IMG/VR virus record: IMGVR_UViG_3300013131_000235 | Coordinates: 1 to 24,826 of that record | Strand: one strand, 5' to 3' | Length of the DNA: 24,826 nt | Source of the DNA: a virus | In this document: in pieces, positions 4,813-21,602 of the stretch | Layout: every line of letters starts with the position of its first letter | How positions within the stretch are numbered: position 1 is the first letter of the stretch | Position numbers and translations under genes: made by a program | Notes under the pieces: generated by a model | Database searches by the model: none | What the model was told of the DNA's origin: nothing | The model's input: the letters and a program-made list of their open reading frames with translations, nothing else

Positions 4813-5430
4813 ATGGCTCTAGGTAATAGCAGTAATATTATCGTAGGTGCAGCGCAGGTCTGGGTATACGAAGGACTACTTGCGGATGCAGATCTACCAG
4901 CATATGTTGGTGGTACTAAGTACGCAACAACACTTGATGGAGATGCTGATTTCCGTAACGTGGGTTACACCATGAATGGTTTGGAAATTCAATTCCAGCC
5001 AGATTTTGGTGAAGTCGCAGTAGATCAGGTTCTTGACGTTGCAAAGTTGTTCAAGCAAGGTATGCAGGTTAACCTAAATACCGCATTTGCCGAATCAACA
5101 TTGGAAAATCTTCTTGTTGCCACAGCAGGATCTGATTCAGATCTTAGCACAGTATCAGGAAACCCAACACTCAATCTCAAGGCAGGAACTCTTGGTGAAT
5201 GTCCGATTGAGCGAGGAATTGTCGCAGTAGGTCCAGGAACTGGTGACTGCGAAGAAGGTTCAAACTTGGAACGAATCTATGTTGCATATCGTGCACTTTC
5301 AATTGAGAGTGTAACAGTATCTGCAAAGCGTGATGAGGCTACAATGTTTGAAGTTTCATTCCGTCTGCTTCCAAACGATAACGGCTCTTATGGTAAGATC
5401 GTTGATCGTACAGTAACACCAACACCATAA
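4813..5430 (+). CDS. Major tail (tube) protein
   Basis: This 205-residue protein would polymerise into the tail tube around the tape measure. It lies directly before the tail chaperones and tape measure gene, and its length is normal for the family. The N-terminus (residues 1-20, LGNSSNIIVGAAQVWVYEG) and the pattern of strands around one helix (residues 69-85, AVDQVLDVAKLFKQGM) fit the tube fold, as does the late strand region ending MFEVSFRLLPNDNGSYGKI. The start has GAGGTGA at 4801-4807 with good spacing. All seven Arg codons are CGT or CGA and none is AGA; together with the flanking hairpins at 4744 and 5449 this marks a highly expressed, insulated gene like the capsid gene. Confidence 0.8.
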   Translation: MALGNSSNIIVGAAQVWVYEGLLADADLPAYVGGTKYATTLDGDADFRNVGYTMNGLEIQFQPDFGEVAVDQVLDVAKLFKQGMQVNLNTAFAESTLENLLVATAGSDSDLSTVSGNPTLNLKAGTLGECPIERGIVAVGPGTGDCEEGSNLERIYVAYRALSIESVTVSAKRDEATMFEVSFRLLPNDNGSYGKIVDRTVTPTP

Positions 5431-5500: not shown

Positions 5501-6190
5501 ATGCCTACAGAAATATATCAAAGTGCCGTCGTACAATTAATAGATGGAACAGAATTATATATAACTCCATTAAAAATAAAATTTCTTAAATTATTTTTAA
5601 ATCAATTTGAAGATGTTAAAATTGCTAAAAATGATGACGAGGCAATTGATGCTTTAGCAAAATGTACTGTTATTGCTATGAGACAGTACTTTCCAGAAAT
5701 AAAAACACAAGAACAACTAGAAGATAATATAGATATGCCAACTATCTATCAGATATTAGATTTTTCTGCGGGAATTAAAATTAATGAAAAGTCAGAAGAA
5801 ACAGTAAAAAAACAAGCCACAGAGAGCGGATCAAGTTGGGATGAATTAGATTTAGCAGAATTAGAATCTGAAGTTTTTCTTTTAGGTATATGGAAAGATT
5901 ATGAAGAACTTGAATCTTCAATGTCAATGCCAGAAATTATAGCAACCTTAAAAATAAAAAGAGATTTAGATTATTCTCAAAAGAAATTTTTGGCTGCTAT
6001 GCAAGGAGTAGATTTAGATAAGGCAAGTGGCAAGAAGAGCAATGCTTGGGAAGACATGAAAGCCAGGGTATTTAGTAAGGGTAAGGCAACTGACTCAAAT
6101 GACATATTAGCCCTACAAGGAGTAAATGCAACACAGGCAGGGTTTGGCATTGGTTTGGGTTTAGACTATGAAGATCTAACCAAAAAATAA
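5501..6190 (+). CDS. Tail assembly chaperone, long form (G and T-like parts in one frame)
   Basis: This 229-residue protein should coat and guide the tape measure during tail assembly. Residues 8-95 are clearly homologous to the short protein encoded at 6234: shared positions include the xLxDxTE start, the central LAKCTVIAMRQYFPE against LMDCVQIAMKQYKPE, and MPTIYQILDFSAG against LPTVYQIIDAASG. This is the G-like part. Residues 115-229 form a separate T-like extension (LAELESEVFLLGIWKDYEEL and KKFLAAMQGVDLDK). In most siphoviruses the extension is joined to the G part by programmed frameshifting; here it is in frame with no shift needed. There is no ribosome binding site, and the ATG lies six bases after a -10 box, so translation is probably leaderless. 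An A7 run at 5806-5812 falls at the junction of the two parts. Confidence 0.75.
   Translation: MPTEIYQSAVVQLIDGTELYITPLKIKFLKLFLNQFEDVKIAKNDDEAIDALAKCTVIAMRQYFPEIKTQEQLEDNIDMPTIYQILDFSAGIKINEKSEETVKKQATESGSSWDELDLAELESEVFLLGIWKDYEELESSMSMPEIIATLKIKRDLDYSQKKFLAAMQGVDLDKASGKKSNAWEDMKARVFSKGKATDSNDILALQGVNATQAGFGIGLGLDYEDLTKK
5806..5812 (+). other. Possible -1 ribosomal slippery heptamer (A7)
   Basis: The zero-frame reading is GTA AAA AAA CAA, so A AAA AAA satisfies the X XXY YYZ rule for simultaneous tRNA slippage. It falls at codons 103-104, between the G-like and T-like parts of the long chaperone. A -1 slip adds ten residues (TSHRERIKLG) and stops at TGA 5842-5844, giving about 114 residues. 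No pseudoknot was evaluated, and an A run in AT-rich DNA may be accidental. Confidence 0.35.
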
Positions 6191-6233: not shown

Positions 6234-6560
6234 ATGGCCGAAAAGCCTAAAGATAATAAGAAAACAATCACGTTAGTCGACAATACAGAAGTCCCAGTTA
6301 GAGCGCTTAAGTTGTCTCTTCTAAGACCATTTATGATAAAGTTCGCAGAATTAGCAGCAGTTGCTGATAATAACGATAAGTCCATGGATATTCTCATGGA
6401 TTGCGTTCAAATTGCAATGAAACAATACAAGCCAGAATTGGCAGATGACAGAGAACAACTAGAGGAACTACTAGATCTTCCTACAGTTTATCAAATAATT
6501 GATGCAGCGTCTGGTTTCCAGAATGCAGAAGCATCAGTTGTTTCTGGTCTAGTAAAATAA
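6234..6560 (+). CDS. Tail assembly chaperone, short form (G-like paralogue)
   Basis: This 108-residue protein aligns along nearly its whole length with residues 8-95 of the long chaperone upstream. Shared landmarks are LVDNTEVPVRALKLSLLRPF against the equivalent N-terminal segment, the DCVQIAMKQYKPEL helix, and LPTVYQIIDAASG near the end. It lacks any T-like extension, and no slippery heptamer is seen near its stop. It therefore looks like a separately encoded G protein, produced by duplication, that supplies the short form which other phages obtain by not frameshifting. It has its own extended -10 promoter and a perfect AAGGAGG site, so it could be made in excess over the long form, as is usual for G over GT. 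The tape measure gene follows after 23 bases. Confidence 0.75.
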   Translation: MAEKPKDNKKTITLVDNTEVPVRALKLSLLRPFMIKFAELAAVADNNDKSMDILMDCVQIAMKQYKPELADDREQLEELLDLPTVYQIIDAASGFQNAEASVVSGLVK

Positions 6561-6583: not shown

Positions 6584-9500
6584 TTGGCAGATGTAAATTC
6601 TAATATTAATATAAATTTTAATACTGCTCAAGCACTTGCACAACTAAAAGCATTACAGGCAGGCCTCAGTAAGTTTCATCAATCACTTGCTGAGGGAAAC
6701 CTTGCTGCAGCAAATGCACAAAAAGGTTTAAATGCTCAACTAATGCAGGCTGTTGGGGCTACTGGAAAATTTGCAGCAAGCCAAGTCAAAGTTGCATCAA
6801 GCACTATGGCATTTACAAGTGCCTTAGAAAAAAATAAATTTTCCCTTCGTGAATACTACAGATATAGTATGGCTGCTGCTACGGCCAACACAAGGGTTTT
6901 AAGCAGGGCATTTGCACAAGAGCGAGAAATTATTAATCGTGCTCGTAGAGATAGAGTAAAGGCACTACAGGCACAATATATTCAAATGGCTAAATCCCAA
7001 GGTGGATTTGTTGAAGCATTAAGAATAATGCCGAAGACCTTAATGATGGCCAATGGTAGATTTACTGAATTGGGAACCAGAATACAATATGCAGCACAAA
7101 GACAACAATTTTTAAATCAATTACTCAGGCAGGGATCTACACAACTATTAAACTTTGGTAAGAATACTCAGTGGGCTGGTCGTCAGTTGATGGTAGGTTT
7201 AACTATGCCTTTGGCACTACTTGGAGGATATGCTGCTAAGGCTTTTAGAGATCTTGAAAAAGCAACAGTTAAATTTAGACGTGTTTATGGAGATGCCTTT
7301 ACAAATGATGCAGAAGTCGAACAAGCATTATCTAACATTAGGATGCTTGCGGAAGAGTTTACTCGATATGGTGTTGCAGTTAAAGATACTGTTGAAATGG
7401 CTGCGACTGCAGCAGCAGCAGGCTTTTCAGGAAAAGCATTAGAAGAACAGGTTAAAACTGCAACAAAACTTGCTGTGCTTGGACAGGTAGAACAACAACA
7501 GGCTCTTGAAACTACAATTTCTTTACAAAACGCATTTGGTCTTTCTACAGAACAACTAGCAAGTAAGATTAACTTTTTAAACGCAGTAGAAAACCAGACA
7601 GTTCTTTCTATTGAAGATTTAACTATAGCAATTCCAAAGGCTGCTCCAGTTGTAAAACAATTAGGTGGTACTGTAGAAGATCTTGCATTCTTCCTAACTG
7701 CTATGAAAGAAGGCGGTATTAATGCATCACAAGGCGCTAACGCACTTAAGTCTGGTCTTGCTTCTTTAATTAACCCAACAGAGAAAGCAAGCAAAATGCT
7801 TGGCGAAATGGGAGTTAATATAAATGGTATTGTTGAGGCCAACCAAGGAGACATAAAGGGAACTGTTGTTGGCTTTGCCAGAGCATTGGATACGTTAGAT
7901 CCGCTTAATCGTGCTCGTGCTATTGAGCAATTATTTGGTAAGTTCCAGTTTGCCCGTCTATCAACACTATTTCAGAACGTATCTAAAGATGGAACTCAGG
8001 CAGCCAGAGCCTTAGACCTTGCTGGATCGTCTGTAGAAGAGTTAGCAGTTCTATCTGAGAGAGAAATGAAGAAGGTAGAAGATGCGGTAGGAACAAAATT
8101 TCAAGCAGCAGTCGAACAGTTTAAGCAAGATATTATGCCATTGGGTAAGGCATTTCTTGAGGCAATAACTCCAATAGTTAAGTTTTTTGGAAAATTATTT
8201 GAAAAATTTAATGGATTATCAGATCAAACTAAAAAAGTTATAGCAATTATTGTAGGCGTGGTTGCTGGTTTAGGTCCAATAGTATTGATGACATTTGGTT
8301 TGTTGGCCAATGGTTTGGCTAACCTGATTAAGTTATTTGCAACAATAAGGGGTGGAATTGCTAGATTAAATGGACAAACAAATGTTTTAGGGGCTGGGTT
8401 TAACTATGTTACTCAAGAGCAGTTGGAACAGCAAGCAGCAGGTCAAGCACTTCACAATACTCACACAAGATTAACGCAAGTATTTAATGTTGAAAAAACA
8501 GCAGCAATGCAACTGGCTGCAGCATATGGTGCAATGTCTACTCAAATGAGAGCAATGGCAGCACAAAATCCAGCACTATTTGCTGGAGGTGCCCGTGGCG
8601 CAGCAGCAGCAGTATCTAAGTTGCCAAAAGGTCCAACAGGTTTTGAAGATGGTGTAGTAAGTGTTCCAGGTCCAAAAGGTGCAGGAGATGTTGTACCAGC
8701 ATTAGTTTCTCCTGGCGAAGCAATTATTCCTGCTAAAACTGCTGAGAAGCATCGTGGATTAATTACTGCAATGTTTCAGGATAAAGTTCCTGGATTTAGG
8801 GTAGGACTAAATCCATTTAAGGGCTCCCACTCTACTAAACAATCTGGTGCAGTGGATATTGGTATGCCAAAAAGATTTGCAGATGTTACTCAATCAAGAA
8901 TGATTGCAGAAAAAATTTCTCAAGAAGCAAATTCTGGAAAATGGTCAAAAGTAAAAGCAAAAGATTTTGGACAAATAATGGAACGTTTTGATGGAAGAAG
9001 TTTTCCAGTAAGAGGAGTTGGCGGAGTATATAAACAACCAAACGGGCAGTTAGTTGTAGTTAAACCAACAATGAATGAGTCTACTGCAAAAGCAGATATT
9101 AGAGCAAATGAACTTACAAGACTTCACAATGCCAATGCTCCAAAATCAAGAATTGAAAAAATAATAGATCCTACAGATCCAGAAAGAAAAAGATCTTATT
9201 TGGCTCTTGTTTCAAAATATGATCCAAGATTTTCTCCGCAACAGATGACGGGTAAATTTAGTCAGTCTGACATGGTAAAACAATTAGTTGCATCAACTAT
9301 TAGAGTTGATAGAGATTTATCAAGAAGCAATGTATCTGGAAGAAATATACCAGATGCAGGAAATGCCTATATTTATGATAGAGCGTCTGGCCTTAGAGTT
9401 CCGAATTTAAATCTACCCTCGATGCAAGAAATGGCAATGATTAATACCCTTGGAGTTAAGGGCGGGGCTAAAAAGTTCTTTGCTCAAGAAACATCTGCTT

Positions 9501-12500
9501 TAGCAGCAAAGATGACACCAACACAATATGAAAATGCCATGAAAAAAGAAATTGCTAGAGTGCTGCCACTTTATAAAAAAACAATATCAGAGAGCAAAAA
9601 TTTCCAAGGACTAGATCCTATAGAAAAACAAGCATATGCAAATGTAATAAAAAGATTAGAAGGTGGATTAAAAGCAGACTGGAAGGCTGTTCATGCAGCA
9701 CACGTAAGAGCAGGAGGAAATATTCCTAAGTATTCAACTGGACTGGGTGGAGATGCGAAACAATCTGCAGTTGAGAAACATCTTGGTAAATTTGTAATCG
9801 GAGATCAAACACAAAAAGATAAACTTGTAAGAAAATTAAGAAGAGACGCAAATATTGCATTTGCTAAAGAACTAAACAAACTAGATCCAGAAAGAAGAAG
9901 GGTTGTAGAAAAAGCATGGTTTGGCGGTTCTGCAAAAATGCCAGATGGAACTGAAAAAACATTTAACAAACCGAGACAAAGTTCTTTCTTAAGAGAAACT
10001 CAAAAGATGATTCCAGTTAAGGTCGGAGATGAAATTAGATATGTTCATCCAAAGGACTTTGATAAATTTAAAGCAGACCCAGAAGGAAGATCTCAATATG
10101 CAAGAACAAAAGAACAAATAATTAAGAATTTATTATATAGAATGGGCGCCACAGAAAGAAATGGTTCTTTTGTTGCTGGAGGCAAGTTTAGTGGAAGGTT
10201 TGCTGCTTTAGACCATTTTGTAACAGATTTAAGATCTACTGGCAAAGGTGCTGGTGGAGGAAAGTCAATTCTTTCTGGTATAGTTAGGCCAGAAGCAGCC
10301 AAACAAGAAGCAAGGTATTTAGCACGACTCGGAGACCCCTTAAAAACTCGTACTGGCAAGACAATGCTTTCTTTGGGATATAGTGCTGCAGAAATAAAGA
10401 AAAAACTAAAGCCAGAATTGTCTCATCTAGATGCAACATCTAAATTAGGAATAGGTGGAAGAGATGCCATAAAGTTTGCTACAGGATATGCTCAATATGA
10501 TTCCCATCTCTTAAATAGATTTATGACTGCAACAACAAGACATTCTAATATTTTAGATTGGGAAGAAAAAAATAAGTCTATTGGATTGAGTGCTAAAGAA
10601 ATCAAAGATTACAGAAGAGCAGCAGAGTTTATGTCTAAAAATGTGCATCCAGCCACCAAAGCAGAAAGACTATTGGTTGCAAAAGCAGCAGAGTTAGATC
10701 AAAGAGTTATTGCACATAAAAATAAGGGTAATTCTGTACCAGCAAAACTTTTGCCAGCAGACCTAAAAATGCCTAGAGCAGTCTCTGCAGTTCTTAAAGA
10801 CACAGGCATTAAGCCAAGCGCTGTTATGAATTTGGCTGCCACCAATTCAGGAGCAGTTCTTGCAAAAGCAGGAGAGTATTTAGTAGACAGAGCAAAAGGA
10901 ACAGCAAAGAAACTTAATGTTGCTAATACCGAATCAAGACCCATGGGTGCAGTTCCATCAACAGGAAAAGTCGGGGATAATTTAAAGGTTACAGAAACTC
11001 CAACAAAGAGAGTAATGACTAGAACTCAGGTTGGTCGTTTGGCGTATTCTCTGCCTGGAAGAGATGCGGGAGACGGTACAAGAATTACATCTCCAGATCA
11101 ATTAAGTAAAACAGCACAAAGGAGGATTAATGCAGGACTTCTTGCAAAAGAAAGGTTATTGAGAAAAGAAAATAAATTAACTGAAACTCAAATTCAAAGG
11201 GCAATTCAAAAAATAAGAACTCAAAGAACTGAAGCAGAAATGGCAAAGGCAAATCTTCGCCTACAGGCTCAGGCTCTTAAGCAGGCCCCCCAAACAGCAA
11301 AAGAAAAGGCAAGACTAGAAAAGCAAGAAAGAAGACAACTAAGACAAGAGAAGGTATCACGATTCTCTGGCGGTGCATCAATGGCTTTAGGAACTGCTGG
11401 TATGGGTATGATGATGTCTGGAAACATGGGTGCTGGTATGGGGCTTATGGGAGCATCAGCAATTGCTGGTATGGCTCCTATGTTTGCTGGTATGGGTCCT
11501 GTTGGATGGATAACTACTGCTACCATTGCAATTGGCGGAAGTTTGTTTGCATTAAATAAGCACTTTGAAAATGCTGCAAAAAAACAGGCTGTATTTGTTG
11601 ATTCAATTTCTGCCACAACCTCAAAGATGGATAAGATTGGTCAAATAACTGATAAGGTTGGCGCTTCACGTGCTATGGAAGAAGTTCGCTCTAAAGGATC
11701 TTTTAATGACTACAATGATGTAAATCGTGCAGGACAACTATTTGGCGATACATTCTTAGAGTCTGAAGTTGGTAAAGCGATGGCTAAAGGCTTTGTTGAC
11801 AATATGGCTTTATTTGGGTCAAAGCAAGCAGCACAAGATTTTGGACTACAACTAGCAACATATGTTTCAGACGGAGTTTTAACATCTGAACAAGCATCAA
11901 GTATTGCAGAACAGATAGGTATTCAATTAGGAAGCAGAACTTATACTACAAATATTCAAGCAGAACTTCGTGGTTTAATAGGTCCAAATGGACAAGATAT
12001 ATTAAATCAACCACTTAAAACCAGAATGAATATTGTTGCTCAAACTGAAAAACGATCTAATATTTTAACCAACAAGTTAAAGGTTGCACAGGGACAAGGA
12101 CTTTCAGGAAGAACAGAATCTGCACAATTAGCAGCAGTAAGTATTAATAATTTACAAATAGCACAAGCACAAGCAGATGCCACAGAATGGCAATACAAAA
12201 AACAAATTCAGATATTACAAAAACAATTAGCACAAACAACTGTTTTAGAAAAACAATTAGAAATTAAAGATAAAATTGCTCAATTAGAAAAAGATATGAT
12301 TATTGATATAGAAAAAATGAATCGCCTAGTAGGCAATCAATACAAAAAAGAATTAAGCAATTTTGAAAAAAATGTTCAGGCTGGCGCTTGGTCACTTGGT
12401 GAGCCAAGAGAAGATGCATACTTTGATTCAATGAAATCAATGGTTAAAGATAGATTTAAGGGCACAGAGTTTGAAACAATGGCAACCGATGCATTGAGCC

Positions 12501-15500
12501 GAAATGCAAAAATTAGTGATAAGAGACAATATGCTAAACAAGGATTTAAAAATCAGGACCAGGCTCAAAAGTTAGAAGTACAACTAGGATTCATGATGGC
12601 AAATGGAATATTGAATCCTCAACAAAATAATGCTTTGCTTGAGTTGTTTGCTGGAAATTTAGATGACTTATCTTCAAGTCTAACACTTGGCGTTGAAAGA
12701 CATGGTGCACAGAAAACTGTAGAAATGATGGACTTCTTTACTGGTTTTGAAAATAAAGAAATGGCATCAACTATGGTAACAAATATCGTAAATAAGGATC
12801 CAAAGCAATTTGATAAAATTGGAAAAACCTTAGCACAACTATCTGTTCTTGATGGACATGAAGTTAACATGGAAGCATTTTTAAGTATGAAAGATGCAAA
12901 TGGCAAGCCAATAGGAATGGAATTGTTAGAAAAATTATCTAATGACTTAGCAAAAATAGAGGCTATGCCAGATGTAACAACTAAAGAAGCAATCTTTAAA
13001 TATTTTGAAGAAGGTGCTGGTAAAGGAATGTCTGGTATGTCAAAGTCTGGAATAGAAAATCTTATTTCGCAATGGAAAAATTGGGACAAACTTCCAGATG
13101 TAGCGAAGAAAGAAGCAATTTCAAAATATAAAACAATTTATGAAACTGTTTTTGCTGATGAACAGGCACGTATAGATTATGCACAAAGAATAGCAAGAGA
13201 AAAGGCTAATGCTGGTTCCGACGGTGGAAGACAAACATATCTTTATGAATATATTTATAAAAATACATACGAAACATTAATGAAAGGAGATGCATCACAG
13301 CAGGCCTCAAATATTGCAGCAGCAGGATCATTTACATATGTTGGTGAAAAGGGAGAATTGCTTGTTAAAGATCCAACAGGGGATCCACTTGGCAACGACA
13401 CAGGTAAGAAGAAAGACCCATATGAAGAAATACTTAAGAGACTAAAGGCTGTAAGAAATGCGGCAATTAATGCTGCTGGAGGAATTAAGGAATTAAATAG
13501 AGCACTAGCAGATTCTGGTTCTAAGTCAGTTAAAAATAGATTTATTGGTATAGAGCAACAACTTGGGGCTAAGGGTTATAGTAGACAATTCTCAGACTGG
13601 ATAATGAGTATGGACGCTAAAGAGCAGGCTAACTGGATGAGAACTGCATCAAAGAAAGTCACTAAAGGGAAAAATAAAGGAAGAGTTATAAATCCGTTTA
13701 CTGGAAAGTTAATGGGCAAAAATGCAAAAATTGGTGATGTAGTTCTTTCTCAAGGCGAAAAAACAGGTAATAAAAAGTTTGACGCAGTGGCAATGGCAAA
13801 AGCATTTGACGCTGCAATTGTAGGAGAGTTTAATTCTGCTGCAGGTAAATCATTAACAATATTAAATGAACAGGAAGAAGTAAGAAGAAAATTATCTGCG
13901 TTAGGTTATGATGCTACCTCAATTGAAAGAATTCTTCAAGACGAATATACAACATCGGCAATTGCTAATGGAAAAATTACACAAAAAGAACTTGAAACTA
14001 ACGCTGCTTTAAATAATCAAGTTATTCTTAGAGAAAGAATTAATGGTCTTATTGCTAAGGGTCTTCAGGCTCAAGAGCAGGCAGCAAATGTTAAACAGAT
14101 TCCACAGGTTTTAGAATTCTTTAGAAATATGTCTAAGGAAGGAATAGGTTTATCTAGAGGCGCAATGCTTGATATGATCGGTGATCCTGATCAACTTGCT
14201 GCAGCGATTTCTGCTATGAAAGATTATGAGTCAAATGCAGAAGGAGCAAGGGATAGACTAAAAGAAATAGTTGATGGTTTAAATGCAATCAAGGCAAACT
14301 CTAATATTAAATTAATAATGGATTTTGTTTCTAAAAATCCTGCGGAAAAAGCACAGGCTGGGTTTGAATCAGCAAAACGTGTAATGGAAGTTAGAAAAAA
14401 TATATATTCTAATATGACAATAGGAGAACTTCCAGGCATAAGCACTGCAAGCAGAACAGGAAAAGATGGTAAAACTATTGCTGGTAAAAATATTGGACAG
14501 CAAGCAGTCGCAAATGTAGCAGCAAGATATAAGGCTGCTGGTGTTGCAGTTCCTCAAGTTGCACCAGGAGAAACTTTAAAGGGTATACAAAAGAAGAGAA
14601 TAGATTTGGCAAAGACTATGCAGATTGGACAGCAAGCATTGTCTGCTATGCAAGCAAGATATAGTGCAAAGCAAGATGAATTAAAGAGTGCACAAGATAA
14701 CTTAGAAAAGGCTCTTGACGATGCAAATGATAAATATGACAAACTAGTTGAGACACAAGAAAATATAATTAAAGATCTTGAAGATAACATTAAATTAAAT
14801 TATGAAGATAAAATTACGGATTTAAATAAAGAGTCTGATAAATTAAGCAATGACCTTGCAATCATGGATCATACTGCAGACAAGATAAATGAAAAATATG
14901 ATAAGCAAGTTGAGGCATTAGAAAAAGTATCTCAAATTAATCAAGATATTGCAGAAAGTCAGCAGCAGCAACTTGGTTTAGCAGATGCATTGTCTCAAGG
15001 TGATATAGCAGCAGCAGCACGTGCAGCACAAGAAATGAGAGCCTCTCAACAAGAAAGAATGATGAATGCTCAAATGTCAGGTATAGAGCAGGCAAGACAG
15101 AACGAACTTGGAGCGTTGCGTGGTGCAGAAACTGGAATGACTAGAGAGCAAATATCCGAAAGACAGTTCCAGATCCAGCAAGCAATATATAAACTAGAAA
15201 ACGATCCAGAAAGATTAAAATTAGAAAAAGCAATAGAGGCTGCTAAGACAGAAATTACTAGATTAGATAAAGAACGTACATTAGAAATTGAGAAAATTAA
15301 TAAAAATCATGATGCACTAATAACAAAATTAAATAGTGAACTAACAACTATTAATAATGAGTTGACTGCACAAAAGAATATTCTTTCAACATTAGAAAAA
15401 CAAGATACAGAGTTAGCATCTCAAGAGACCTATTTACAATCTATTGTTGATGAAGCAGTTGATTTAGATGACAGCACTGGAATGACTTTAGAGAAGTGGG

Positions 15501-16417
15501 AAGAGACAGTAGATAAGTTAATTGATATTGAGCAATTAGCAGAAGATTATGCAATTTCTTTAGCAGCAGCAGAGGCTTCCGCAGCAGCAACTGATTTATC
15601 CTGGCAAAATATTTTAAATACAATTAATTCAATTCCAGAAAGTGTTACTACAAATCATATTATAAATGAAATAAGAAACATTACAGAAAATATTACTAGA
15701 TATATAACAACGATTAATCTTGGCGGAAGTGACGGAAGTAGCGGAGGTAATAATACTTGCCCTGCAGGTTTTGTTAAAAATGCAAGTGGTCAGTGTGTTC
15801 CTGTCACCACCTCTTGCCCTACAGGTTTTGTTAAAAATGCAAGTGGCCAATGTGTTCCTGTCAATCAAAGCGGTGAAGGCAATGGAAACGGCAATGGCAA
15901 CGGAAATAGTGGTAACACAGATTTAGGCGGAGATGGGCTACTAACTGCAGAAGCAATAGCAGCAGCAGCCAAAGCAAAGGCAGACGCAGAAGAAGCGGCA
16001 AAAATTATTGCAGCAGGTAATGCCCAAGCATCAGAAAATTCAGATTGCGTTACATTATCAAATGGAATGGTTATATGTGCAAGTGGTGGCTTAATTCCAA
16101 GTATTAATTACGCTAACGGAGGCTTTGCTTCATATTTTAATGAAGGTAATTTAGTAAACTTTAAACCATATAAAACAGATACTGTTCCAGCAATGCTTAC
16201 TCCAGGAGAATTTGTTATGAGTAAATACGCTGTACAAAACTATGGTGTTGATAAAATGAGAGCAATCAATAATGGTGAAGCAGTTGGAGATTCAGTGTAT
16301 AATTATAGTATTAGTATCAACGTTAAATCAGATGCAAATCCAGATGAAATTGCACAAGCAGTAATGACACATATTAAGCAGGTAGATGCAAAGAGACTTA
16401 GAGGAGCCAGATTATAA
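6584..16417 (+). CDS. Tape measure protein with embedded enzyme-like region
   Basis: The 3277-residue product sets tail length and is carried in the tail lumen until DNA ejection. Residues about 185-470 form the TP901-type tape measure core (QWAGRQLMVGLTMPLALLGG, then EMAATAAAAGFSGKALEEQ and FLTAMKEGGINASQGANAL). Residues 551-587 are hydrophobic, probably membrane-active. Residues 697-730 carry a first DVVPALVSPGEAIIP motif. Residues 806-935 show a kinase-like signature. Residues 1050-1590 are basic and unrecognised, ending in a charged coiled coil. Residues 1600-1657 are Met/Gly-rich and hydrophobic. Residues 2686-2990 are long coiled coils. Residues 3059-3093 hold two Cys-containing repeats, followed by Gly-Asn repeats. 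Residues 3199-3212 carry a second motif (DTVPAMLTPGEFVM). The start is TTG, fixed by AGAGGTG at 6569-6575. I saw no lytic transglycosylase or peptidase motif. The stop overlaps the next start (TAATG). The length is at the top of the known range. Confidence 0.9.
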   Translation: MADVNSNININFNTAQALAQLKALQAGLSKFHQSLAEGNLAAANAQKGLNAQLMQAVGATGKFAASQVKVASSTMAFTSALEKNKFSLREYYRYSMAAATANTRVLSRAFAQEREIINRARRDRVKALQAQYIQMAKSQGGFVEALRIMPKTLMMANGRFTELGTRIQYAAQRQQFLNQLLRQGSTQLLNFGKNTQWAGRQLMVGLTMPLALLGGYAAKAFRDLEKATVKFRRVYGDAFTNDAEVEQALSNIRMLAEEFTRYGVAVKDTVEMAATAAAAGFSGKALEEQVKTATKLAVLGQVEQQQALETTISLQNAFGLSTEQLASKINFLNAVENQTVLSIEDLTIAIPKAAPVVKQLGGTVEDLAFFLTAMKEGGINASQGANALKSGLASLINPTEKASKMLGEMGVNINGIVEANQGDIKGTVVGFARALDTLDPLNRARAIEQLFGKFQFARLSTLFQNVSKDGTQAARALDLAGSSVEELAVLSEREMKKVEDAVGTKFQAAVEQFKQDIMPLGKAFLEAITPIVKFFGKLFEKFNGLSDQTKKVIAIIVGVVAGLGPIVLMTFGLLANGLANLIKLFATIRGGIARLNGQTNVLGAGFNYVTQEQLEQQAAGQALHNTHTRLTQVFNVEKTAAMQLAAAYGAMSTQMRAMAAQNPALFAGGARGAAAAVSKLPKGPTGFEDGVVSVPGPKGAGDVVPALVSPGEAIIPAKTAEKHRGLITAMFQDKVPGFRVGLNPFKGSHSTKQSGAVDIGMPKRFADVTQSRMIAEKISQEANSGKWSKVKAKDFGQIMERFDGRSFPVRGVGGVYKQPNGQLVVVKPTMNESTAKADIRANELTRLHNANAPKSRIEKIIDPTDPERKRSYLALVSKYDPRFSPQQMTGKFSQSDMVKQLVASTIRVDRDLSRSNVSGRNIPDAGNAYIYDRASGLRVPNLNLPSMQEMAMINTLGVKGGAKKFFAQETSALAAKMTPTQYENAMKKEIARVLPLYKKTISESKNFQGLDPIEKQAYANVIKRLEGGLKADWKAVHAAHVRAGGNIPKYSTGLGGDAKQSAVEKHLGKFVIGDQTQKDKLVRKLRRDANIAFAKELNKLDPERRRVVEKAWFGGSAKMPDGTEKTFNKPRQSSFLRETQKMIPVKVGDEIRYVHPKDFDKFKADPEGRSQYARTKEQIIKNLLYRMGATERNGSFVAGGKFSGRFAALDHFVTDLRSTGKGAGGGKSILSGIVRPEAAKQEARYLARLGDPLKTRTGKTMLSLGYSAAEIKKKLKPELSHLDATSKLGIGGRDAIKFATGYAQYDSHLLNRFMTATTRHSNILDWEEKNKSIGLSAKEIKDYRRAAEFMSKNVHPATKAERLLVAKAAELDQRVIAHKNKGNSVPAKLLPADLKMPRAVSAVLKDTGIKPSAVMNLAATNSGAVLAKAGEYLVDRAKGTAKKLNVANTESRPMGAVPSTGKVGDNLKVTETPTKRVMTRTQVGRLAYSLPGRDAGDGTRITSPDQLSKTAQRRINAGLLAKERLLRKENKLTETQIQRAIQKIRTQRTEAEMAKANLRLQAQALKQAPQTAKEKARLEKQERRQLRQEKVSRFSGGASMALGTAGMGMMMSGNMGAGMGLMGASAIAGMAPMFAGMGPVGWITTATIAIGGSLFALNKHFENAAKKQAVFVDSISATTSKMDKIGQITDKVGASRAMEEVRSKGSFNDYNDVNRAGQLFGDTFLESEVGKAMAKGFVDNMALFGSKQAAQDFGLQLATYVSDGVLTSEQASSIAEQIGIQLGSRTYTTNIQAELRGLIGPNGQDILNQPLKTRMNIVAQTEKRSNILTNKLKVAQGQGLSGRTESAQLAAVSINNLQIAQAQADATEWQYKKQIQILQKQLAQTTVLEKQLEIKDKIAQLEKDMIIDIEKMNRLVGNQYKKELSNFEKNVQAGAWSLGEPREDAYFDSMKSMVKDRFKGTEFETMATDALSRNAKISDKRQYAKQGFKNQDQAQKLEVQLGFMMANGILNPQQNNALLELFAGNLDDLSSSLTLGVERHGAQKTVEMMDFFTGFENKEMASTMVTNIVNKDPKQFDKIGKTLAQLSVLDGHEVNMEAFLSMKDANGKPIGMELLEKLSNDLAKIEAMPDVTTKEAIFKYFEEGAGKGMSGMSKSGIENLISQWKNWDKLPDVAKKEAISKYKTIYETVFADEQARIDYAQRIAREKANAGSDGGRQTYLYEYIYKNTYETLMKGDASQQASNIAAAGSFTYVGEKGELLVKDPTGDPLGNDTGKKKDPYEEILKRLKAVRNAAINAAGGIKELNRALADSGSKSVKNRFIGIEQQLGAKGYSRQFSDWIMSMDAKEQANWMRTASKKVTKGKNKGRVINPFTGKLMGKNAKIGDVVLSQGEKTGNKKFDAVAMAKAFDAAIVGEFNSAAGKSLTILNEQEEVRRKLSALGYDATSIERILQDEYTTSAIANGKITQKELETNAALNNQVILRERINGLIAKGLQAQEQAANVKQIPQVLEFFRNMSKEGIGLSRGAMLDMIGDPDQLAAAISAMKDYESNAEGARDRLKEIVDGLNAIKANSNIKLIMDFVSKNPAEKAQAGFESAKRVMEVRKNIYSNMTIGELPGISTASRTGKDGKTIAGKNIGQQAVANVAARYKAAGVAVPQVAPGETLKGIQKKRIDLAKTMQIGQQALSAMQARYSAKQDELKSAQDNLEKALDDANDKYDKLVETQENIIKDLEDNIKLNYEDKITDLNKESDKLSNDLAIMDHTADKINEKYDKQVEALEKVSQINQDIAESQQQQLGLADALSQGDIAAAARAAQEMRASQQERMMNAQMSGIEQARQNELGALRGAETGMTREQISERQFQIQQAIYKLENDPERLKLEKAIEAAKTEITRLDKERTLEIEKINKNHDALITKLNSELTTINNELTAQKNILSTLEKQDTELASQETYLQSIVDEAVDLDDSTGMTLEKWEETVDKLIDIEQLAEDYAISLAAAEASAAATDLSWQNILNTINSIPESVTTNHIINEIRNITENITRYITTINLGGSDGSSGGNNTCPAGFVKNASGQCVPVTTSCPTGFVKNASGQCVPVNQSGEGNGNGNGNGNSGNTDLGGDGLLTAEAIAAAAKAKADAEEAAKIIAAGNAQASENSDCVTLSNGMVICASGGLIPSINYANGGFASYFNEGNLVNFKPYKTDTVPAMLTPGEFVMSKYAVQNYGVDKMRAINNGEAVGDSVYNYSISINVKSDANPDEIAQAVMTHIKQVDAKRLRGARL
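8999..9388 (+). other. Kinase-like domain inside the tape measure (putative)
   Basis: Residues 806-935 of the tape measure show, in order, the landmarks of a protein-kinase-type fold. There is a glycine-rich strand turn (RGVGGVYKQPNG) leading to VVVKP with Lys827, a helix with Glu843 in RANELTRL, a hinge-like strand (SYLALVSKYDP), a catalytic-loop-like VDRDLSRSNV with Asp911 and Asn916 spaced exactly as in HRDxxxxN, and a metal-site-like AYIYDRASG with Asp932. The compact spacing is closer to small atypical kinases (HipA or PI3/PI4-kinase-like, aminoglycoside kinase-like) than to eukaryotic kinases. The residues are read directly; the fold and activity are inference. Confidence 0.45.
11381..11554 (+). 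other. Met/Gly-rich hydrophobic segment of the tape measure
   Basis: Residues 1600-1657 contain runs such as MGMMMSGNMGAGMGLMGAS followed by a helix-like WITTATIAIGGSLFAL. The segment is long enough for two membrane passes and follows a strongly basic coiled coil. Hydrophobic stretches in tape measures are thought to insert into the host membrane during DNA entry. Confidence 0.5.
15758..15862 (+). repeat. Tandem Cys-containing repeat in the tape measure (two units)
   Basis: Two 48-base units (15758-15805 and 15815-15862), 57 bases apart, encode CPAGFVKNASGQCVPV and CPTGFVKNASGQCVPV. At DNA level they differ at only a few positions. Each unit has two cysteines twelve residues apart, like a small disulfide-linked loop. 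Confidence 0.85.
15878..15907 (+). repeat. Gly-Asn repeat linker in the tape measure
   Basis: GGN AAY codons alternate five times (residues 3099-3108), directly after the Cys repeats. It probably forms a flexible linker between the repeats and the conserved C-terminal segment. Confidence 0.7.
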
Positions 16418-17058
16418 TGTCAACATCAACATACATGACAGGAAGGAAAAAGTATGGCAGACCACAGGCTATGCTATGGTCTGAAAATTCTGGAACTTTA
16501 CTTAATGGTTTATATATTCCAAACGGTTTAGAGGTGGGTCAAGATCCAGGCTCTGAAAGTGATGACTCTACATATAATCAATTTTTAATATTGTCTGATG
16601 ATAATAGATCTTCTATTGATTTTTCTAATGAGAGAATTGAAAAAAGAGAAAGAATGATAAATGGAAGAATGCGTTCATATCATATAGCAGATAAATTAAC
16701 AATATCTACATCATGGGACATGTTGCCGTCTAGATCATATTTTACAATACCAGATTTTAATCCTACTACAGGAATATCTCCGCACTCTGGGTCAAATAAT
16801 TTAGAGTACACAACTGACGGAGGCGCAGGAGGAGTAGAAATTCTCGATTGGCACGAAAAACATCAAGGACCATTTTGGGTATATCTGGCGTATGACAAAT
16901 ACTCTAATTTTGGAAAAGATAGTGCTGCTTATGCACATCTACCACAATATAATCAATTAATACAAATGTATTTTTCTAATTTTAGTTATAGTGTTGTAAA
17001 AAGAGGCAACAGCAATTATGATTTTTGGAATATATCCGTATCTCTGGAAGAGGTATAA
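16417..17058 (+). CDS. Distal tail-like minor tail protein (putative)
   Basis: The first gene after the tape measure normally encodes the distal tail protein, the ring that joins the tube to the tip. This 213-residue product fits in length and beta content. Visible features are a basic N-terminus (TGRKKYGRPQAMLW), a central KLTISTSWDMLPSRSYF stretch with a strand pattern, EILDWHEKHQGPFWVYLAYD around residues 145-165, and a C-terminal strand pair ending NYDFWNISVSLEEV. The last segment is what tube-like domains look like when they list their closing strand. No enzymatic motif is seen. Eight of ten Arg codons are AGA, in contrast to the capsid and tube genes. The start shares a base with the tape measure stop; GAGGAG lies about ten bases ahead. 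Confidence 0.6.
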   Translation: MSTSTYMTGRKKYGRPQAMLWSENSGTLLNGLYIPNGLEVGQDPGSESDDSTYNQFLILSDDNRSSIDFSNERIEKRERMINGRMRSYHIADKLTISTSWDMLPSRSYFTIPDFNPTTGISPHSGSNNLEYTTDGGAGGVEILDWHEKHQGPFWVYLAYDKYSNFGKDSAAYAHLPQYNQLIQMYFSNFSYSVVKRGNSNYDFWNISVSLEEV

Positions 17059-20000
17059 TGTTTAATAACGAAGATCTTAAACTACACTTGGAGACTTCTC
17101 CTACAATACGTAGTCAATCTGCAATTATAGCAGAATGGAATATGAATATTGCAAATAATATTTTTAGAATAGGTAATTATAGATACAGACCAGCATCTGA
17201 TATATCTGATAAATATAAAACAGTTCCAGGAACTTTTGATGTAAACGACATAGGTAATTTTTATACTGGAGCAACGGATGCAGATGTTAGGATTGATGGT
17301 GGAATAGATCCAGATGGTAACGCAGAACCATGGTTTTTATTAGAACAAAATAAAAAAAATAAAATGTTATATTCTTTAGAAGATTGTTTTAAAAAATTTA
17401 GACCAAGATCTGGAATAAACAAAGCAGTGTATTTTCCATGGAAAAAATTTCATCATTCTAATATGAGTATGTCAAATAGACCACGATACTATATGGCAGA
17501 TAAAAATGATAATTTTAAATACTGGACTTCCTTTAGAACTGATTCTGGAAACTTGCGAGGTATAGCAAATAAAGTAGTAAATGGACAAAACTATATAGAA
17601 GATACAGCACCATTTATAGTATATGAAAATCCAGTGCCTGCAAATAGAGTTGTAATAAAAATGCAGACAAATGTAGGTTCCGTCGACCTTGGACCCTTTT
17701 CTAATAAGTCTGGTTCATTTTCAGATCCACTATATGGTGATTTAAATAAAACTACACCCGTAAAATGGAAGGTCCAATCTTTGCAAAATAATAATTGGAT
17801 AGATATTATATCTTTTAATTCTGGAACTACAAGAAGAGACGGTACTGCAATAATTAAAGACGATGGGTATATAGAAATATCTTATGGTTTGATTGTTCCA
17901 GATAAATATAGAGATTCTTTTGTAAGGGCAGAGGAATATACAAATGCTTCATTCCTTCCAGAAAAATCTATTAATGGTTATGCATATTTACTTAAAGAAA
18001 ATGAATCAGATATTGGACAATATCACATATGGTTTGAAAATGCTTGGCAGGTTTTTACCCCAGAATATGGGTGGTTATTAGAAGAAGAAACTGTAAATCG
18101 TTTAACTAACTTTGTCACAGATTTTGTAGATCCGCCAAAATTTATTTCTACATCAGAAAACAAAAATATGTATCGTGAATTTGAATATATAAAAGGTCTA
18201 AGAGTTGTAGTTGATACAATGAATAAAATAAATTCTACTTTTGATCTTATAGAACTTTCACCAAGATTGTGTGCCGATATATCAGAAAAGGTAGTAAGTT
18301 TTAATGTTTCAAAAACTGCATCTGACTTAGGAACTAGTGGACTTCCAGTAGGACAATTATTAGCATCTAATGGAACGTTAGAAATATTTGATTACGACAA
18401 TTCTTTTAATGAAAATAATGAATTAAGCATTATCAAAAACTATACGTCAAGCAATATACAAATTAAGTTTTATGATATTGTCGTAAATGTTGATGGCTAT
18501 GATTATTTTGTTCCAATAAAAACTATGTACTCTGAAGGATTTCCATCTATATCTTATTCTGATAGAAAGGTAAGCCTTTCATTAAGAGATATGTATTTTT
18601 ATTTTGAGTCAATCAAAGCACCAGAAATGTTGGTCCCAAGAGTATCTCTTAGTTATGCTATTTCTTTACTTTTAGATTCTATAGGATTTTCTAATTATGT
18701 ATTTAAAAGGGTGGCTGGAGAAAAAGAACTAATTATTCCATTTTTCTTTATTCCCCCAGATAAAAGTATTGCTGAGATTTTAAATGATCTTGCAATTTCA
18801 ACACAGACTGCAATGTTTTTTGATGAATATAATAATTTTGTAATGATGAGTAAAAATTATATGATTCCATCAATTAATGATAGGAATATAGATACAACAA
18901 TTTTTGGATCAAATGATTTTATAGATAGCGGTGTTATTGAAAATGCTAACTCTCAAGATAAACTTGCAAATATTATTGAAATAGCATCAGAGGATAAAAC
19001 TATATATAATGATGGAGTAATTAATTATGACACAAGATATATACAAAGATCTTACGGAAGCATTAAACAAGCATCAATGATAGACAATGCTGCTGCTGCA
19101 AAAAATTGGATATATAAACCAGTTTTGCTTTGGGAAATTGTTGGAGGCAAAAATGCAAGATCAATTAATAATGAAACTTCAGATCAGTCAGCGTATAACC
19201 TATCCGCAATTCCATTAAATTCTAATTTATCTGCCAGTGTGCCAGAGGTGGTGGGTAATAGATTGGCTAATAACGTTATAGATTTAGGAGAAGCAGTTTA
19301 TTGGTTAAGTAGATATAATGGATATTTTTATGCTAATGGTGAGATTATAAAATTTGATGCAGTGCAATACAGCATTCCTGGCGGAGAAAAAATTATAGTT
19401 ACACAAGATAATAATGGAAAGCCAATATATACTTCTCAAACTGTTGGTGCAATTGGAAATGTTTGGATTAGCAGTAATCAAGAATATCAAGACTATATGT
19501 CTAAACTTGCATTCAATGGAAAAATTTATCCAACTGGACTTATAAGAATATATGCTGAACCCAAATATGAAGAAGTTAATGGTATAACTGTAATGAAAAA
19601 TGGATCAGTTGCAAGACATGGACGTGGACAATTTGGTACTAAAATAGTTTCGCATGATGCTGGGTTAAACTCGCATTGGAAAGACGACCTATACGTTCGT
19701 GGAATGAATATGGAATCAAAACATCTATTTGGTTTGGTGAGCGGACAAATATATGTTTGGGATCAAATTTTAAATCAATGGGTTGTTAAAACAAATAATA
19801 ATCAGGTAACTATAAAAGCAAACTATAGCACCTTAGATGAATTAAAAGCAGCACATCCTATTGGAACAATAGAAGACGCTTATAGGGTTGGATATGATAT
19901 TTTAGATAATGCTGCAATTCAGACTAAAAATTTAACTACAGGACAGGCTGGAGTTAATAATTCTAGAGCAAAAGAAACAGTTAGGTCTAGTATAATCAAA

Positions 20001-21602
20001 AACTTTTTATCTCATTCATATGTTAATGAATCTGAAAATAATACAAATAAGTCTACTCAAACAGGATCTATTCAGGCTTCTGCGTTAGTAATGGGTGGGC
20101 CGTCTTTTAGTACAACAGAAACTCCATTAAACTTTGTTTCTTATCAATATAAACCATTAGATAATAAATATAAACATTTTGGCACAAGAATGAGAGTTAT
20201 AGGAAAACTTGAAATAAGCGATACCAAAGAACAGACCCCCATCGGATCTGTACCAGTATATGTTTTACCTGGAAGTCAGCCAAACCAACAATTAAATATT
20301 TCTGGAGGATCTGGCGGTATTGCTGTTATGATTAATCCTAATACGAATGTTGGATATTATTTTGAAATTGTTGCTTTAACAGAAAAAAATGTAAGTGAAT
20401 ATTCTTCAGAAATAGATAATCTTCATAACGTAATATTTTATAAAGTTTATTCTGACCCAAATGGAAAAGCAATTCCAATAAAACTTTGGGGTGGACTTGC
20501 CAGCATTACAGTTGATGATGGAGCGTTTACTGGTCAATCAAGAATGCTTGGTGAGAAAAATCCAACGGTATACGATCTTGCAGTAGAGTATCAAGACATA
20601 GGATCATCAAGAAGGTTTTATTTATATATAAATAATAATTTAGTTAAAATTATTGATGATTCTTCTCCTTTGCCAATTTATAATAATATGGCATTATTTG
20701 TTCGTGGCGGTTCAAAGTGTATGTTTGAAAATGTTTATGCACTTACTAACAACTATAGCCAAAATACAGCATCAGAACTAGATACTCCAATTGCTGCAGC
20801 GTTTGGGGATGAACATATAACGACAAATGAATCTTTTAGAAAATATGCAATGTCTGGAATGGTACAGTCAACTTATTTATCTGGAATTAATATGAGTCAG
20901 CCACCCTCATTTAATATTTACTTTGATGAGTTTGGAACAATTATGCGAGAGGCCTCATATTTAAAAATTAAATATGATAAGGCGTACCCAGCACTTTATG
21001 CTCAACTATCTCCAACCTTTAATAGAATAAAAGGATATGCAGTTTCTGGATTTAAGGCAGGTTCTTACGGTGCAGAGTTTATGGTATTTAATGCTACCGA
21101 TACATCTCTTAACCTTGATGAGACAAGTGGTAATTATTTAAGAATTCAGGGAATTACTTTTACACAAGAGTCAGGCGATCAATTAAGTGTTGATTCATAT
21201 TTTGAAAAAAATGCAAATTTTTCTGATCCAGCAATAGGCAAGGATGGATTAATTATTTCTCCAATTAGATCCGCAATAGATTACGATAAAATAAAAACAA
21301 GCAGGATGACATACGGCAAAAAAGAATTTTCTTTAGATACCTTATACGTTCAGTCAAATGATGATGCAAATGATTTAATGGGATGGATGATTAATAAAAT
21401 GTTAAAGCCTAGAAAAAATATAGGTGTTAAGATTTTTGTTAATCCAACAATTCAGTTGGGAGATTTAGTAAATATAAAATATAAAGATAATGAAGGAACT
21501 GATATAATAGCATCAGAAGAAAAAAGGTTTGTGGTTTATCATATGGAATATTTAAAAAATTATGACGGGCCAGAAATGACTTTGTATTTGAGTGAGGTGT
21601 AA
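17058..21602 (+). CDS. Large tail hub/tip minor tail protein with lectin-like insert
   Basis: This 1514-residue protein is probably the central tail-tip (hub) protein. The start chosen is ATG 17058, which shares a base with the upstream stop and has GGAAGAGGT just before it; an earlier in-frame ATG at 17025 lies inside the previous gene and is unlikely. The N-terminal 500 residues are beta-rich, with a discoidin-like patch (NRVVIKMQTNVGS and WKVQSLQNNNWIDI). Residues 520-600 contain PRVSLSYAISLLLDSIGFSN and EILNDLAISTQTAMFFDEYN, typical of hub proteins of siphovirus and myovirus tips. Residues 1006-1232 look like a concanavalin-type lectin insert. The C-terminus (NDLMGWMINKMLKPR, then IQLGDLVNIKYKD and a final LYLSEV) is a conserved closing domain of this type. 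It could contact the host surface. No protease or glycosidase site is visible. Confidence 0.65.
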   Translation: MFNNEDLKLHLETSPTIRSQSAIIAEWNMNIANNIFRIGNYRYRPASDISDKYKTVPGTFDVNDIGNFYTGATDADVRIDGGIDPDGNAEPWFLLEQNKKNKMLYSLEDCFKKFRPRSGINKAVYFPWKKFHHSNMSMSNRPRYYMADKNDNFKYWTSFRTDSGNLRGIANKVVNGQNYIEDTAPFIVYENPVPANRVVIKMQTNVGSVDLGPFSNKSGSFSDPLYGDLNKTTPVKWKVQSLQNNNWIDIISFNSGTTRRDGTAIIKDDGYIEISYGLIVPDKYRDSFVRAEEYTNASFLPEKSINGYAYLLKENESDIGQYHIWFENAWQVFTPEYGWLLEEETVNRLTNFVTDFVDPPKFISTSENKNMYREFEYIKGLRVVVDTMNKINSTFDLIELSPRLCADISEKVVSFNVSKTASDLGTSGLPVGQLLASNGTLEIFDYDNSFNENNELSIIKNYTSSNIQIKFYDIVVNVDGYDYFVPIKTMYSEGFPSISYSDRKVSLSLRDMYFYFESIKAPEMLVPRVSLSYAISLLLDSIGFSNYVFKRVAGEKELIIPFFFIPPDKSIAEILNDLAISTQTAMFFDEYNNFVMMSKNYMIPSINDRNIDTTIFGSNDFIDSGVIENANSQDKLANIIEIASEDKTIYNDGVINYDTRYIQRSYGSIKQASMIDNAAAAKNWIYKPVLLWEIVGGKNARSINNETSDQSAYNLSAIPLNSNLSASVPEVVGNRLANNVIDLGEAVYWLSRYNGYFYANGEIIKFDAVQYSIPGGEKIIVTQDNNGKPIYTSQTVGAIGNVWISSNQEYQDYMSKLAFNGKIYPTGLIRIYAEPKYEEVNGITVMKNGSVARHGRGQFGTKIVSHDAGLNSHWKDDLYVRGMNMESKHLFGLVSGQIYVWDQILNQWVVKTNNNQVTIKANYSTLDELKAAHPIGTIEDAYRVGYDILDNAAIQTKNLTTGQAGVNNSRAKETVRSSIIKNFLSHSYVNESENNTNKSTQTGSIQASALVMGGPSFSTTETPLNFVSYQYKPLDNKYKHFGTRMRVIGKLEISDTKEQTPIGSVPVYVLPGSQPNQQLNISGGSGGIAVMINPNTNVGYYFEIVALTEKNVSEYSSEIDNLHNVIFYKVYSDPNGKAIPIKLWGGLASITVDDGAFTGQSRMLGEKNPTVYDLAVEYQDIGSSRRFYLYINNNLVKIIDDSSPLPIYNNMALFVRGGSKCMFENVYALTNNYSQNTASELDTPIAAAFGDEHITTNESFRKYAMSGMVQSTYLSGINMSQPPSFNIYFDEFGTIMREASYLKIKYDKAYPALYAQLSPTFNRIKGYAVSGFKAGSYGAEFMVFNATDTSLNLDETSGNYLRIQGITFTQESGDQLSVDSYFEKNANFSDPAIGKDGLIISPIRSAIDYDKIKTSRMTYGKKEFSLDTLYVQSNDDANDLMGWMINKMLKPRKNIGVKIFVNPTIQLGDLVNIKYKDNEGTDIIASEEKRFVVYHMEYLKNYDGPEMTLYLSEV
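20073..20753 (+). other. Concanavalin A-like (LamG-type) domain in the hub protein (putative)
   Basis: Residues 1006-1232 run as a series of strands characteristic of lectin-like jelly rolls: SALVMGGPSF, then HFGTRMRVIGKLE, GIAVMINPNTNVGYYFEIV, VIFYKVYSD, YDLAVEYQDIGSSRRFYLYI, NNNLVKIIDD and NNMALFVRGGSKCMFENVYAL. This order, in which a ligand strand pair precedes a short solvent-exposed Y-x-N-N-x-L turn and a final aromatic strand, is typical of the family. Carbohydrate binding on the host wall is inferred. Confidence 0.5.
21500..21508 (+). promoter_or_regulatory. Possible internal extended -10 promoter
   Basis: TGATATAAT lies inside the hub gene about 100 bases before the next start. It is the only other forward-strand TGnTATAAT I found inside a gene and may be a chance match. 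Confidence 0.2.

Follow-up and report, generated by a model that had tools for sequence, protein, structure and literature searches.

The tape measure protein (TMP) of a phage is usually seen as a ruler and a conduit for DNA, and the enzymatic parts known from such proteins so far cut the cell wall. The locus described here raises the question of whether a TMP may also carry an enzyme of a different kind, i.e., a domain with a kinase fold. An initial reading of the sequence (referred to below as the original prediction) had noted a kinase-like signature inside the TMP and offered two interpretations: an enzyme carried inside the tail ruler, or a degenerate fold reused as a structural part. A description of a kinase within a TMP was not found in the literature searched, in which subscription journals are little covered.

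The DNA analyzed (referred to as the window) is a linear IMG/VR record of 24,826 bases, which holds a head-to-tail block of structural genes:

399-1541, major-capsid-like protein
4813-5430, Ig-domain protein
5501-6190 and 6234-6560, two tail-assembly-chaperone-like open reading frames (ORFs)
6584-16417, + strand, TMP ORF, 3277 amino acids (PhageMin_Tail, E 2.6e-27; phrog_10030, tail length tape measure protein, E 7.5e-102)
17025-21602, minor tail protein

The TMP ORF begins with a TTG codon, just upstream of which is a ribosome-binding-like sequence (GAGGTG), and it is identified both by the TMP profile and by the gene order, i.e., tail assembly chaperones, TMP and minor tail protein. The two chaperone-like ORFs have the N-terminal family phrog_10504 in common, and the first of them contains an additional C-terminal extension (phrog_10474). 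Because this extension is found in the same frame, the two forms, long and short, are apparently encoded by separate paralogous genes rather than generated by a programmed frameshift, which is annotated for the tail assembly chaperone of Streptomyces phage Yaboi.

Results

Layout of the tape measure protein

The N-terminal part of the TMP and the region of interest are composed of the following elements:

7361-7939, + strand, TMP core, PhageMin_Tail domain, residues 260-452 (profile match)
8225-8347, + strand, hydrophobic segment, residues 548-588, peak Kyte-Doolittle value 2.43
8642-8803, + strand, "PGE" motif, residues 687-740 (...GDVVPALVSPGEAIIPAKT...), a conserved slot edge
8816-11263, + strand, variable slot, from the conserved N-terminal region to a conserved region that starts at about residue 1560
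8816-9721, + strand, predicted atypical-kinase-fold domain, residues 745-1046, with the compact fold at about 785-1043 (about 8936-9712), delimited from an AlphaFold2 model, VIA and the cassette edges in the relatives L211 and L217

The hydrophobic segment, located upstream of the slot, may be a membrane segment, judging from its composition. The slot is bounded by the "PGE" motif on one side, of which several relatives harbor a second copy downstream of the kinase module, and by a Gly/Ala/Met-rich hydrophobic stretch (residues 1593-1657) on the other. Here, the kinase-fold domain occupies the first 300 residues of the slot, i.e., more than the interval 8999-9388 of the original prediction, which was too short, and a second module (9722-11263, residues 1047-1560) fills the remainder. 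Scans of this second module against Pfam and NCBIfam gave no significant match. Within this module, relatives have TGYAQYD..LLN.FM-like segments and an "ELSH-I" motif in common, and the slot modules of two TMPs that do not harbor the kinase domain (L198 and L206) contain a similar "[SA]H" element. Near the C-terminus of the TMP, a tandem cysteine repeat (CPAGFVKNASGQCVP / CPTGFVKNASGQCVP; 15758-15868, residues 3059-3095) shows a weak match to phrog_4454, in a stretch that is unfilled in most relatives.

Predicted structure of the domain

An AlphaFold2 model of residues 745-1046, the second that was calculated, was based on 60 homologues (32-70% identity) and reached a pLDDT of 93.2 and a pTM of 0.89, with all five models above 91; the earlier model, based on 21 homologues, had a pLDDT of 83 and gave a much similar list of structural matches. 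The predicted fold has two lobes, as in the protein kinase-like (PKL) superfamily: a five-stranded N-lobe with helix alpha-C and a helical C-lobe, in the order b-b-b-aC-b-b, aE, catalytic loop, helical C-lobe, where Lys83 of the model, in the third strand, is Lys827 of the TMP. In a second look with VIA, all 50 of the PDB matches listed were atypical kinases or kinase-fold proteins. The top match was CotH (Z 11.8, 221 residues aligned, 4.3 A), and others were CtkA (Z 10.7), PI4KII-beta (10.6), the N-terminal region of LepB (9.4), Fam20C (9.1), VPS34 (9.0) and HipA (8.7). Among the folds that the original prediction had proposed for comparison, HipA and PI4KII were thus recovered, while aminoglycoside-kinase-like folds were absent among the VIA matches listed for both models. 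Superpositions obtained with Foldseek were poor (TM 0.2-0.5), and the fold assignment therefore rests on the second look with VIA and on residue conservation.

Sequence comparisons gave a different picture. Single-sequence and profile searches of Pfam, NCBIfam, PADLOC and the PDB did not reveal a kinase family match to the domain; weak hits, such as YopE_N and AOC_like, were at chance level and rejected as identities. When 60 members of the domain family were compared with Pfam, no PI3/PI4-kinase, CotH or Fam20 model was matched at E <1, and HipA_C (PF07804) had no match in the window record. A profile-profile comparison, suggested in the original prediction, yielded a probability of 0.05% (hhalign against seven HipA sequences), and membership of the HipA family is therefore rejected, in spite of a common fold class.

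Active-site residues

Conservation was evaluated in an alignment of 149 distinct domain sequences with identities down to 31%, in which the following elements were followed:

9014-9031, + strand, glycine-rich strand turn GVGGVY, residues 811-816 (Gly814 invariant)
9062-9064, + strand, Lys827, beta-3 lysine (149 of 149)
9095-9097, + strand, Asp838, acidic alpha-C position (E 142, D 5, S 2 of 149)
9302-9331, + strand, catalytic loop R907-x-D909-x-D911-L-x-x-x-N916 (R907, D909, D911 and N916 invariant)
9353-9361, + strand, D924-A-G926 (Asp 149 of 149; Gly 138, Ser 11 of 149)
9377-9379, + strand, Asp932 (Asp in 66 of 149)

Lys827, Asp909, Asp911, Asn916 and Asp924 are found in all 149 sequences, and Gly814, Asp862, Gln900 and Arg907 are invariant as well. 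The combination that is typical of the PKL superfamily, i.e., a beta-3 Lys and a catalytic-loop Asp/Asn pair, is thus present as Lys827, Asp911 and Asn916, and the catalytic loop predicted in the AlphaFold2 model coincides with invariant residues. In members such as L267, the catalytic loop and the region of the likely metal Asp read RGDRDLHGGN...ADAG.

All residues named in the original prediction are located at the TMP positions given for them (ORF 6584-16417), and three of them, Lys827, Asp911 and Asn916, proved invariant as expected of kinase residues. The other two assignments have to be revised. Residue 843, a Glu in the window, varies freely (Q 45, E 42, I 22 and others), and the acid of helix alpha-C is likely residue 838 instead. 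Asp932, in AYIYDRASG, had been taken as the metal Asp, but this position is occupied by A, S, G, E, K or other residues in the remaining sequences, and an Asp found in only 66 of 149 cannot be a required metal ligand. After the catalytic loop, the only strand-bridge residues in the second model are 174 and 177 (DSSP), which suggest a minimal hairpin whose two-residue turn closes shortly ahead of Asp924, located 8 residues past Asn916. Spacing, DSSP and conservation indicate that Asp924 (D-x-G) is likely the DFG-equivalent metal Asp.

Pairwise dN/dS values of 0.10-0.29 (five pairs) show that the domain is under purifying selection. On the basis of these computations, i.e., predicted fold and conserved residues, residues 745-1046 are assigned to an atypical branch of the PKL superfamily, and the kinase-like signature of the original prediction is more than a chance resemblance. 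The two checks named in that prediction, a two-lobed fold and constancy of the Lys, Asp and Asn positions among homologues, both turned out in its favor.

An optional cassette

To our collection of related TMPs the domain itself did not contribute: an unbiased set was recruited by residues 201-600 only, from which the best 80 of at least 592 relatives were used. Presence of the domain could be judged for the TMP of the window and for 69 further TMPs; of these 70, 40 harbor the domain and 30 do not, and a full-sensitivity search of the latter did not uncover a hidden divergent copy. On a tree of the N-terminal region, the presence of the domain changes at least 8-10 times (10 changes, 8 of which are forced by the starred branches). 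The clearest case is that of L211, with the domain, and L217, without it, which are sisters with 100% support and 90% identical up to residue 747. Here, about 289 additional amino acids are cleanly inserted in frame in L211, after which the same sequence (IPELSP.AKSQSQVEMQKFFDWAD) continues in both. The insertion is flanked by similar 19-bp stretches (ATGGCTGGAAAGATTCCAG and ATGGCTGGTTTTATTCCAG), of which L217 has one copy (ATGGCAGGTTCTATTCCAG).

The median length is 3039 amino acids for TMPs with the domain vs 2666 for those without (Mann-Whitney p 3e-8, a value that ignores relatedness), i.e., the length added by the cassette is not compensated. In domain-bearing TMPs the domain is a conserved island, with an identity to the window of about 0.47-0.62 over residues 801-1000 and 0.16-0.28 thereafter; since it was the domain that recruited this set, the comparison is biased. 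Upon comparison of 26 domain-less TMPs, the slot contents fell into 15 groups with no similarity over 150 residues, and seven slot sequences of such TMPs gave no significant family in Pfam. A diverse slot is seen in L198-L275, at TMP residues of about 700-1600. What these comparisons show is a cassette with exact borders, present in some TMPs and absent from others, that occupies a variable slot; further cargo enzymes could exist among the other slot modules.

The cassette was found in 306 ORFs. In 293 of them, i.e., in all that could be judged, it is accompanied by the N-terminal region of a TMP of this group; another 12 are truncated at the 5' end, and the last is a broken copy. The latter is that of L105 (6001-6841), a short ORF whose frame changes within the kinase domain, which reflects either decay or a sequencing error. 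Searches of 50,697 phage records, for which four different members served as queries, gave no match to the domain, and neither did two scans of GTDB genomes. Named TMPs that are related by the N-terminal half (about 31%) belong mostly to Streptomyces and Gordonia phages, none of which matched the kinase-fold domain; from these relatives we would guess that the host is an actinobacterium. Phages of this group are presumably mostly from freshwater, an assumption based on the origins of the contigs.

Discussion

The data are best explained by a model where the domain is a catalytically competent atypical kinase-fold enzyme, which is carried as TMP cargo, expelled with the TMP and acts on the host early in infection, and we consider this model probably correct. 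An enzyme is likelier than a degenerate fold because the catalytic set shows no loss in 149 sequences, and the clean gains and losses of the domain favor cargo over a tail part; hence, of the two interpretations in the original prediction, the enzyme inside the tail ruler is favored and the degenerate fold disfavored. In mechanistic terms, the domain would bind ATP and transfer phosphate, or else a different portion of the nucleotide, to a protein. It would be packed in the tail tube together with the TMP, most likely not folded, expelled with the TMP at DNA ejection, and would then fold at or beyond the inner membrane, where it would act on a host target. Unfolding and refolding must be assumed because the folded domain, which we estimate to be about 45 A across, would be a tight fit in the tail tube. 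Delivery is made more plausible by two reports: during genome injection, the TMP is located at the inner membrane and contacts inner-membrane and cytoplasmic proteins (PMC13190303), and contractile injection systems load TMP-related effectors with exchangeable functional domains (PMC13277306). Together, these observations suggest, although they do not prove, that an ATP-using enzyme reaches the host by way of the phage tail.

An active enzyme could also serve in the producing cell: the TMP is a late protein, and its domain would, prior to incorporation of the TMP into the tail, block superinfection or modify proteins of the host or of the phage tail at the assembly stage. The conserved active site is silent on timing, the domain is found inside TMPs only, and ATP is at hand for a free TMP in the cytoplasm. 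Confinement of the domain to TMPs of this group would likewise fit a structural or assembly role. However, a late assembly function of the whole group should persist, yet 30 of 70 TMPs do not harbor the domain and carry other, unrelated modules in the slot, which makes this explanation rather unlikely. Another possibility is a pseudokinase or nucleotide-binding domain that binds a partner (a host membrane protein, a chaperone or a tail protein) and does not transfer phosphate, as might be suspected from the loss of Asp932 in more than half of the sequences and from the unusually short hairpin ahead of Asp924. Pseudokinases usually lose one of the residues Lys827, Asp911, Asn916 and Asp924, all of which are invariant here in 149 sequences down to 31% identity, and we therefore regard the absence of catalysis as quite unlikely.

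The invariance of these polar active-site residues also speaks against a passive structural insert, i.e., a kinase fold that now serves to lengthen the ruler or as a scaffold. Such a role would be in line with the observation that the length of the protein hosting the domain sets the tail length and that domain-bearing TMPs are about 370 amino acids longer; the clean presence or absence of the domain between near-identical TMPs, with the length left uncompensated, makes it very unlikely. Finally, the kinase likeness could be an artefact of structure prediction or of the composition of the PDB, in which kinases are over-represented, and the poor Foldseek superpositions (TM 0.2-0.5) might be viewed in this light. 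However, the models obtained from two different alignments agree, atypical kinases rather than the far commoner protein kinases occupy the top ranks, with Z up to 11.8 over most of the domain, and the invariant residues coincide with the predicted catalytic loop, so that an artefact is hardly credible.

The model of a TMP-borne enzyme may be extended to a broader one, where siphophages of a widespread freshwater group inject a TMP-borne kinase, swapped in and out of a dedicated cargo slot, which would modify a host protein at once; this we put forward tentatively, as somewhat short of probable. The effect would possibly be to disarm a defence or to aid DNA entry at the membrane. If true, the TMP would be a general delivery vehicle, in which a kinase-fold enzyme whose active site is invariant comes and goes as a cassette, and protein modification would precede expression of the first phage gene. 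The proposed cargo function also agrees with the recent finding that some effectors of injection systems are TMP-related and have exchangeable domains (PMC13277306).

Relation to known systems

The spore-coat protein kinase CotH (PDB 5jd9/5jda) is likewise a two-lobed atypical kinase with a Lys, a catalytic-loop Asp/Asn pair and a DFG-type Asp, of which Asp924 is the likely counterpart. It differs from the TMP domain in being a stand-alone spore protein, and the two display 8% identity and no profile match. The loop between the catalytic and metal Asp is longer in CotH than in the TMP domain. PI4KII, CtkA, HipA and Fam20C belong to the same fold class, but their identity to the TMP domain is 10-14%; none of them is known to be part of a virion. 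In HipA, the D-x4-N spacing of the catalytic loop, with residues Asp309 and Asn314, is the same as that of Asp911 and Asn916.

The best viral structural matches are HHTV-1 gp13, "PI3/4-kinase domain" proteins of uncultured Caudovirales and a portal fusion (A0A6J5S481). HHTV-1 gp13 (L276, 9436-12738) is an unannotated protein of 1100 amino acids from an archaeal virus, with a kinase-like catalytic loop (NRDIHGGNFIVDDDGVPQPVDNG). Its best alignment to the TMP profile, which is non-significant, falls on ASVLTGNRDIHGGN and then VDNG; gp13 carries NRDIHGGN...VDNG, where VDNG is a partial parallel to the Asp924 motif. In contrast to the TMP domain, gp13 is encoded in the head block, beside a Mu gpF-like gene, and has a hairpin of normal length before the metal Asp, which seems to be minimal in the TMP domain.

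Enzymes that enter the host with the virion are found in other phages. Alt of phage T4, an ADP-ribosyltransferase, travels in the virion, as proposed here for the TMP domain, and modifies proteins of the host upon entry, but it is an internal head protein with a different fold and chemistry. The protein pb2 of phage T5 is a TMP with an enzymatic part, and, like the TMP of mycobacteriophage TM4, it exemplifies a TMP with a built-in enzyme that helps the phage at infection, as proposed here, but these are cell-wall hydrolases and not ATP-dependent. In TM4 the part in question is a peptidoglycan hydrolase motif (as cited in PMC13277306). Sle1/Tme of the contractile injection systems of actinobacteria are components of bacterial systems, with the effector domain at the C-terminus and with no kinase mentioned in that text, but they resemble the proposed cargo TMP in being TMP-like carriers with exchangeable functional domains, ejected to membranes (PMC13277306).
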